From Pirellulales bacterium (GTDB taxonomy: Bacteria > Planctomycetota > Planctomycetia > Pirellulales > JALHPA01), in contig JANRLT010000060.1 of NCBI GenBank assembly GCA_033762255.1, positions 1 through 64,000 on the forward strand: a stretch of DNA of 64,000 bases, in the 5' to 3' direction. Made by a program: the position numbers and the translations under genes. The notes under the pieces are model-generated. The model did no database searches. It worked only from the letters and a program-made list of their open reading frames with translations, and had not been told where the DNA came from. Positions 3,825-5,930 of the stretch are shown here, one piece after another (position 1 is the stretch's first letter; each line of letters opens with the position of its first letter).

Positions 3825-4355
3825 TCACGTGAAGAATTCAATCGGGTTGCCCGTCTTTGCACTTGCATCGCATAAGACAAGCCCATTCTTCAACGTCTCG
3901 TGAATATCTCCGTCGAGGAATGGATACCCCCATGCCAATTCTCTCTCGAACGCTTTCTTCACGTGCCACCCCATATGCTCCTCGTCGGAGAGGTAATTTT
4001 GCAGCTGTTCGATCTCTAGCCGCCAAAAGGAGGCTTCGTCCGGGGAAAGCGCCAGATATCCATCTTTGTACTATCTCCTAATTGAGATTCTCATGAATAA
4101 CTCGAAATACCCAGCCCGCTCCTGGTATGTGGCCTTAAGCGCCAAGCCGATCTCTAGCAGGTCCCCGGGCCAAAATTGGACAAGCAGGCCTTCACGGTGG
4201 CCGCACTTAAACATATCTCGAAAGTTCTCTTCCCACTCTTTCCTTTTTCTTACACTACGAAAGTGGTAACGGTATGAATCATCCCCGTGGTATTGACACC
4301 CAGGAAGAGGCTCCCTGTCAGGGGAGTCGCATTTCACTTTACACCACGAACCCAT
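3825..4355 (-). pseudogene. Cassette-borne hypothetical gene interrupted by an in-frame TAG
   Basis: The frame opening at 4355 encodes 94 residues with several Cys and His (for example CKVKCDSPDREPLPGCQYHG), then stops at TAG, 4071-4073. The same frame continues directly for 81 more residues that look fully coding (YKDGYLALSPDEASFWRLE, then an acidic helical stretch) and ends at TGA, 3825-3827. The two parts together make a natural protein of about 175 residues, so I read this as one gene broken by a nonsense codon. Alternatives are UAG readthrough, a base-call error, or two genes, though the second part has no good start codon. I do not recognise the family. It is the last of four same-direction ORFs. 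Confidence 0.55.
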
Positions 4356-4411
4356 CGTCTCTCACTTATGCGGTAGCTGCCTTATGACTGCGTTACCCGT
4401 GTTGCCGCCTA

Positions 4412-4630
4412 CTAACTTTCCGGGTGTAAAACCGCACACGGCAATTCCGGTTCATCGCCTTGTTCGGCGAATGCGGGTTGACTTTGCTTGGCAGAGAAGG
4501 AAACAATTCGAGCGCCGCTTAATTCTTGCTCGCGACGCAACTCATTGCACATGGCGTGCAAATCATAGTTGAAGCGACGGGCGGCTTCATCCCGGGTATT
4601 ACGAATCTCTTGAATGATGGTGTCAGACAT
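4412..4630 (-). CDS. Short antitoxin-like protein of unknown function
   Basis: A 72-residue acidic/basic helical protein beginning MSDTIIQEIRNTRDEAARRF and continuing NYDLHAMCNELRRE before a segment like RIVSF. Small proteins of this pattern (MTDxIIxEI followed by ARxxYDlhAlxxdLrrrE) are very common in planctomycetes and cyanobacteria and are often taken for orphan antitoxins; their function is not established. AGGAG lies six bases before the ATG at 4630, which is why I reject the longer frame opening at 4744. It is the third ORF of the cassette-like run and has no toxin partner beside it. Confidence 0.75.
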   Translation of the reverse strand: MSDTIIQEIRNTRDEAARRFNYDLHAMCNELRREQELSGARIVSFSAKQSQPAFAEQGDEPELPCAVLHPES

Positions 4631-4680
4631 TCTGTTCTCCTTGTTCCAGCATTTCATGGCGTCCCGTTGACGAAAAAATG

Positions 4681-5019
4681 TTAGCACGCGCGCTCTAAAG
4701 TTCGAATTACAAGTAAAGCAGGCCAAAGGCTCATATGCCCACAACCACCGATATGTGGGTCAGGCAAAAGCAAGGTACCTTTTGCGACAACCAATTTGCC
4801 GTGCATTGCCTCGTACGCCGATGGATTGAACCGCAGATTACCTTGGCCAACTTCAAGCCAGATAGAAGAGTCGTAGTCCGTTCTTAGCTGGGATGCGGGG
4901 CTGTGATAAATGGCGACATCTTCAAACTCGAAGTGGAGAAGCCCCGTGATGCTGACGTAGAGTCCAGCCAGCTTTTGTTTTTGATCCAGTGCTTCGTTGA
5001 CGCTAAGCGTTATTCTCAT
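4681..5019 (-). CDS. Small OB-fold-like hypothetical protein
   Basis: A 112-residue protein of beta-rich character. Segments such as KLAGLYVSITGLLHFEFED, then SSIWLEVGQ, then KLVVAKGTLLL and GGCGHMSLWPALLVI, follow the order expected for a small barrel found in short planctomycete proteins; that similarity is from memory, not a search. The start at 5019 lies only a few bases after the end of the attC-like site, as in integron gene cassettes, and there is no clear Shine-Dalgarno. The TAA stop is embedded in a TGCTAAC sequence resembling the first core box of another attC, but I could not find its second half. Confidence 0.65.
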   Translation of the reverse strand: MRITLSVNEALDQKQKLAGLYVSITGLLHFEFEDVAIYHSPASQLRTDYDSSIWLEVGQGNLRFNPSAYEAMHGKLVVAKGTLLLPDPHIGGCGHMSLWPALLVIRTLERAC

Positions 5020-5022
5020 GAA

Positions 5023-5115
5023 TGCTAACAACCCAAGCTCAGCGACCCGGCCCACGAGACGCCACGATTGCTACCGCGACGCGATTGCCGGGTTCCCTGC
5101 AGCGCATGGTTAGGC
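5023..5115 (-). other. attC: attC-like integron recombination site
   Basis: A 93-base imperfect palindrome read on the minus strand. It starts with GCCTAAC, which fits the R'' core RYYYAAC and contains the stop of the preceding gene. It ends with GTTAGCA, close to the R' core GTTRRRY, three bases before the next start codon. Inside are pairable arms ending in ACCCGGC and GCCGGGT at equal distances (29 bases) from the two ends. The middle carries GCGCTGCA and CGCTGAGCTTGGG, typical of environmental attC sites. Read through in one frame it gives a peptide like NHALQGTRQSRRG, often misannotated as a small protein. No integrase is in the window. Confidence 0.75.
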
Positions 5116-5559
5116 GGCGACGAATTTGGAACGTAACTCATAAGGACACCTCTCTGTGACGTGAACAACCTCCCAAGGTTGCCCCTTGCCTTCGCCGGAA
5201 ACCCCGCGAATTGCAATGAACAAGTCGAACGCTGTTGCGGCGCTCTGCGCGACAACACCAAGCACGGCTGTGTCGGGACATGACGCCGACACCGTCGAAT
5301 GTGTCCAACGCGGGTCATGGTGAATTTCGAAATCCAATCCGAGCCTCTGCGCTTCGTCACGGGAAAATGTGGAATCAGTGAGGTCTGTGCCACTGAACAC
5401 CATGCTGACAGCATCCTCAACACTGCCGCTGAACTTACGAGGCGGGTCGCTCTTGCCGAGATGCGAAATGGAAACGCCACGCTCCTGCAACGAGCGAAAG
5501 AAACTGCAAACCCGCGCTGCTGTCGGCTTGGCGATGTAAGCATAGAGGACGTGTGACAT
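5110..5559 (-). CDS. First cassette gene, unknown function
   Basis: A 149-residue soluble protein. It starts MSHVLYAYIAKPTAARV and has a central segment with FSRDEAQRLGLDFEIHHDP and a C-terminal region ending RSKFVAA. I do not recognise a family or catalytic motif. It is the first ORF after a strong promoter at 5640-5668, and its stop codon lies inside the attC-like site that follows. A larger ORF at 5025-5543 in another frame runs across the attC and is a shadow. Confidence 0.7.
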   Translation of the reverse strand: MSHVLYAYIAKPTAARVCSFFRSLQERGVSISHLGKSDPPRKFSGSVEDAVSMVFSGTDLTDSTFSRDEAQRLGLDFEIHHDPRWTHSTVSASCPDTAVLGVVAQSAATAFDLFIAIRGVSGEGKGQPWEVVHVTERCPYELRSKFVAA

Positions 5560-5639
5560 AGCCGCCGGTCATTAGATTATACAGTCTTTTCGCTGGGATA
5601 TTCGTAATATCCAGGACAGCTACACAGCGATTTTCCCGT

Positions 5640-5668
5640 ATAGTACAGTCTTGATATAGGCCTGTCAA
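5640..5668 (-). promoter_or_regulatory. Strong sigma-70-type promoter of the cassette run
   Basis: On the minus strand TTGACA is followed after exactly 17 bases by TACTAT, a near-consensus pair. Transcription would begin about 75 bases before the first cassette ORF and run through all four. A small palindrome, GGATATT and AATATCC around three bases (5596-5612), lies in the leader and could be an operator. In integrons the cassette promoter lies in just this position, but no attI core is visible here. Confidence 0.65.
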
Positions 5669-5930
5669 ACAGTGCATCATCCTTTAGCAAAACCGGTTAA
5701 GTTCATTAGTCCCCTAGCAGCCAGCCTGTAATATCCAGCAATATACCATCCTCCACTCAACCCACCTGATAATGCAAACGACGATTGTCGGTATTGAACC
5801 GTCAACACCCCAGCTAAAGCCAAAACTCCTCAATCAGCTCCGCGATTCGCGGCGGATCAGGCATTATGCAGCCCCTGGCACTGAGAGGCACGGGAACTGC
5901 AAGTAGACATAGATATTGCCCAAAAACGCA
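5669..5930. other. Gene-free stretch between cassette promoter and tRNA terminator
   Basis: About 260 bases with no credible gene. A tiny minus-strand reading frame, MPDPPRIAELIEEFWL, near 5818-5870 might be a remnant of a larger gene. I see no integrase and no attI core. Confidence 0.4.

Follow-up and report, generated by a model that had tools for sequence, protein, structure and literature searches.

In published accounts, an integron has one attI site next to its integrase gene, intI (PMC3607928, PMC9024848). The default threshold of IntegronFinder 2 for an integrase-free cassette cluster (CALIN) is two attC sites and no intI (PMC9024848), and the proposed origins listed for CALIN in a further study include loss of intI and off-target insertion (PMC8618304). 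The closest described systems are the degraded sedentary chromosomal integrons of Xanthomonas (PMC12444791) and Treponema phagedenis (PMC3607928), in which intI has been lost or inactivated and attC cassettes remain. The available parts of these two reports describe one integron locus with attC clusters elsewhere and mention no repeated attI.

The locus analyzed here lies in a 64,000-nucleotide stretch of planctomycete DNA, referred to in full as the window. It resembles the Xanthomonas and Treponema loci in what has been lost and what remains but differs from them in that its leader, an attI/Pc-like module, is present at eight loci of the genome. It likewise resembles CALIN in having attC and cassette genes without an intact intI nearby but differs in its single intact attC site, its decayed intI start, and its leader (PMC9024848). 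We consider it probable that the window contains the remnant of a degraded chromosomal integron, one of several loci with a conserved attI/Pc-like module.

Results

The cassette array contains an intact attC site

Read along the minus strand, the locus consists of a divergently oriented, decayed intI start, the leader, ORF1 with an intact attC site, ORF2, ORF3 with a decayed attC site, a broken ORF4, and a host gene. The four ORFs reported in the initial annotation were present at the coordinates given there, all on the minus strand. ORF1 (5559-5110; 149 amino acids [aa]), the first cassette gene, belongs to no known family: it had no Pfam, NCBIfam, or PADLOC match, and a search of plasmids and of 297 genomes from the order yielded no convincing homologue. 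ORF2 (5019-4681; 112 aa) has homologues in other planctomycetes. In L178, from the same class, an ORF2 homologue heads an array with the order ORF2 homologue, attC, ORF, attC, ORF, attC, so that the expectation that the same ORFs would be found beside attC sites elsewhere was borne out for ORF2. ORF3 (4630-4412; 72 aa) is a member of a widespread family of short planctomycete proteins conserved over the first 50 residues. ORF4 (4355-4071; 94 aa) ends at a TAG codon (4073-4071), beyond which the same frame stays open for another 80 aa, to position 3827; a search for relatives of ORF4 found none, and it is likely to be a gene broken by a nonsense mutation.

The 93-nt attC-like element proposed at 5115-5023 (minus strand) does contain the ORF1 stop codon (TAA) and ends 3 nt before the ORF2 start codon (ATG). 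It has an R'' box (GCCTAAC), an R' box (GTTAGCA), paired L boxes with unpaired bases, and a conserved fold. Covariance model R1, which was built from 21 diverse attC copies of other genomes with the source genome excluded, scored the element at 94 bits (E, 2.6e-23), with the next site in the 64 kb at 14.1 bits. A second held-out model, R3, gave 78.9 bits (E, 1.7e-20), and the covariance-model check suggested by the initial annotation thus placed the site far above background. Across the 21 sites from other genomes, both sides of the L''/L' stem had changed in 18 cells, compared with 4.0 after shuffling. The folding energy of the palindrome was ordinary (z, -0.41 and -0.25); the palindrome by itself is therefore no evidence for attC, and energy was left unused. 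The element is located at the 3' end of a cassette gene, and its relatives are found with arrays and in genomes that carry intI. Judged by its sequence, 5115-5023 is a real attC site.

At least 117 stretches from other genomes contain a 17-base piece of this attC site, and among the matches listed the carriers of this attC type are mainly Verrucomicrobiota, with Planctomycetes, Acidobacteria, Nitrospira, and Betaproteobacteria also represented. Approximately 50 copies extracted from other genomes are near 93 nt in length and have ends identical to those of the window site. When intI was searched for across 28 genomes, nearly all of which hold the window attC type, it was found above the curated cutoff in 10. 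The presence of near-identical 93-nt attC sites in several phyla (L034-L113) suggests cassette exchange or a common integrase type. The source genome itself has 10 attC sites listed by R1 and 20 by a broader model. Two of its arrays (L235:5835-6095 and L030:7245-7000) encode closely similar small cassette proteins (MKTPRNFS.RSP.EQQ.LTEDSWC.VCEAADLGMR...).

The second-best site in the window, at 4468-4379 (minus strand), has the expected place and strand, overlaps the end of ORF3, and has an R' box that lacks GTT. It scored 20.8 bits (E, 0.0017) with R3, a model built without window sequence, and is probably a decayed attC site. On the basis of this site and of the ORF4 TAG codon with its open frame beyond, the array comprises one cassette that is intact and, behind it, others that are decaying. 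The cassette nature of the locus is thus upheld, but not as four units of one ORF plus attC. With one intact attC site, one decayed site, and a remnant of intI, the window would fall below the CALIN threshold.

A leader with promoter, hairpin, and cassette junction occurs at eight loci

Just upstream of ORF1 is a leader of approximately 130 to 175 bp (5745-5570, minus strand) that comprises a promoter, a hairpin, and the cassette junction, which follows G5570; we regard it as a putative attI site with its cassette promoter, Pc. Its core (5699-5570) is the segment matched by R2. The near-consensus promoter that had been noted before ORF1 is there, reading TTGACA-N17-TACTAT at 5668-5640 (minus strand) with 10 of 12 consensus matches. 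Taken alone it is not significant, since four sites with at least 9 of 12 matches were found and 2.0 were expected, but the hexamers are kept in other copies of the leader, and they are invariant (TTGACA, TACTNT) in the five copies that make up alignment A3. The hairpin (5614-5593, minus strand; CTGGATATT-ACG-AATATCCCAG, with one unpaired C) also is kept in most copies. In G213, a genome from another family of the same order, inspection of the alignment by eye revealed one compensatory change in it, from G-C to T-A.

The source genome carries eight copies of the leader (the window, C56, C71, C36, C30, C27, C21, and C53), on different contigs and with different neighbors. Most have in common TTGACA, a TACTAT-like -10 hexamer, the hairpin CTGGATATTACGAATATCCCAG, and an end near ATAATACAATG|TTRGGC. 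In five of the eight (the window, C56, C71, C27, and C36), the next 1.2 kb contains an attC site on the same strand, and the C36 leader is followed by seven attC sites; no attC was detected after the leaders of C30, C21, and C53. Matches to R2 in G262 and G212 (approximately 22 bits) had no attC in the 10 kb covered and were taken as chance. The strong promoter and hairpin, together with the three copies that have no attC detected nearby, could be explained if the leader were a mobile promoter element or a regulatory RNA, unrelated to integrons and upstream of cassette genes by chance. Against this, a search of the window with Rfam returned tRNA only, with no match for the leader, five of the eight copies precede an attC site on the same strand, and the leader of G213 lies between an intI fragment and attC, which leaves such an element highly improbable.

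In the pairs of leaders compared, similarity extends approximately 0 to 16 nt beyond the junction and no further, and the upstream ends vary. Each copy therefore carries different cassettes, and the pattern would be that expected of different cassettes joined at one crossover. At the leader end of five copies (C56, C71, C36, C30, and C27), a G|TT junction precedes R'-like bases; the window junction reads ATG|ACCGGC and has no TT. The C36 leader end, AGTAAAATGTTAGGT, is a near match, including the G|TT crossover, to the attI2 core, AATAAAATGTTRRRY, given in PMC12901181, the comparison being confined to the core.

The leaders of C56, C27, and C30 have a further 370 to 600 bp in common upstream, which lack intI, and some of the spread of the leader is therefore plain segmental duplication. 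Extended to all copies, this would make the leaders duplicates of a single degraded integron, dispersed through segmental duplication or REP/RAYT-type elements, with cassettes that differ through later deletion or rearrangement and not through recombination in trans at each locus. A REP-associated transposase gene that adjoins the intI fragment on C47 and a small insertion in the C27 leader are in keeping with such an origin. It is not to be expected, however, that deletion would make similarity break off at an identical base in each pair, and five copies have the G|TT junction with R'-like bases; we consider general duplication unlikely. The C27 insertion (L233:4994-5132) is approximately 117 bp long, has inverted-repeat-like ends, and splits the hairpin.

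A decayed intI start lies beyond the leader

On the plus strand at 5823-5870, divergent from the array, the window encodes a decayed intI 5' end, KLLNQLRDSRRIRHYA. Only about 16 residues are clear; they align with KLLDQLRDVLRVRHYS of the G213 intI fragment (tblastn E, 2.2e-5, within a restricted set), and the score of 59 compares with a maximum of 44 in 3,000 Markov-shuffled copies. At the DNA level, identity to G213 is 87% over 23 nt, and the spacing is similar. The leader of G213 is flanked by a divergent intI 5' fragment on one side and by an attC site on the other, which places the leader in the attI/Pc position, and a second leader end in that genome precedes another attC site. Because the window remnant is at the same place as in G213, with DNA similarity and similar spacing, the locus is best read as a putative broken integron and not as an unattached cassette.

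An integrase encoded elsewhere might instead have put a single cassette at a nonclassical site (attG) that had no attI of its own. That the window has only one intact attC site would fit such an event, as would the proposal of off-target insertion as an origin of CALIN (PMC8618304). The upstream neighbor of ORF1, however, is the repeated leader, which has a promoter and a junction and stands before other arrays too, and beyond it is the decayed intI start; attG insertion is thus already disfavored, and we rate it very unlikely. The same two features bear on the first reading of the locus as a CALIN or the tail of an array, which did not take in the decayed intI 5' end or the fact that the promoter is part of an eight-copy attI/Pc-like leader.

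A complete integron has an intact intI; what was found here is a remnant of the N terminus in the window and, on C47, an N-terminal fragment. No intact intI, and none above the cutoff, was found in the source genome, from whose assembly (96.6% complete) one could be missing, and no intI remnant was found ahead of the seven remaining leaders. XerC/XerD-like recombinases on C7 and C72 match the family but were rejected as intI, since they lack the middle region and control genomes match too. The C47 locus (L031:3445-4479; G000 C47:23444-24478) has the N-terminal intI fragment, 58 residues of which were used as a query, followed by the gene for a REP-associated tyrosine transposase; it also has a cassette array in divergent orientation, with several attC sites and with a DMP19-like gene among its cassettes. 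C11 has a shorter intI fragment. Neither C47 nor C11 is a leader locus: the leader is absent from both, and they have in common a second, different attI region that is 90% identical.

An intact IntI is also encoded in G213, next to a cassette array; it was rejected as the owner of the leader because no leader adjoins it. No intact intI of the type belonging to the leader was found in the genomes searched, and the attI role of the leader accordingly rests on its position and its junction. A search for the empty site by way of a flanking gene returned remote homologues only and no close relative. In G531, from the same class, contig C1 has two equal-scoring IntI-like recombinase genes approximately 1.6 Mb apart (near 5358687 and 6989235), both below the cutoff.

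Discussion

By the known mechanism of integrons, an active IntI would have recombined the attC site of a cassette into the leader junction, ATG|TTRGGC, and Pc would have transcribed the first cassettes. The window copy would later have lost its intI, and its junction now has AC in place of TT. Given this loss and the altered junction, ORF1 is probably fixed in place and still under the control of Pc.

Several leaders without intI carry different cassettes, from which we infer, less firmly, that an integrase acting in trans may have used these loci as attI sites. A possible extension, which we put forward tentatively and regard as somewhat doubtful, is a distributed integron in which many scattered attI/Pc sites each collected and expressed cassettes of their own with one integrase acting in trans; the source genome would then represent the state after the loss of that integrase. 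A leader at eight loci differs from the usual arrangement of one landing site beside one integrase, and a literature search of partial coverage found no report of scattered or multiple attI sites in one genome. To our knowledge, little has been described of attI sites beyond class 1, and for this reason software does not look for them.

Through the repeated leader, an attI/Pc-like module can be defined by sequence in a phylum that has been little studied. An array that would be classed as integrase free can have a promoter and a landing site of its own, and the repetition of the leader makes it possible to test whether one IntI captures cassettes in trans at many loci.
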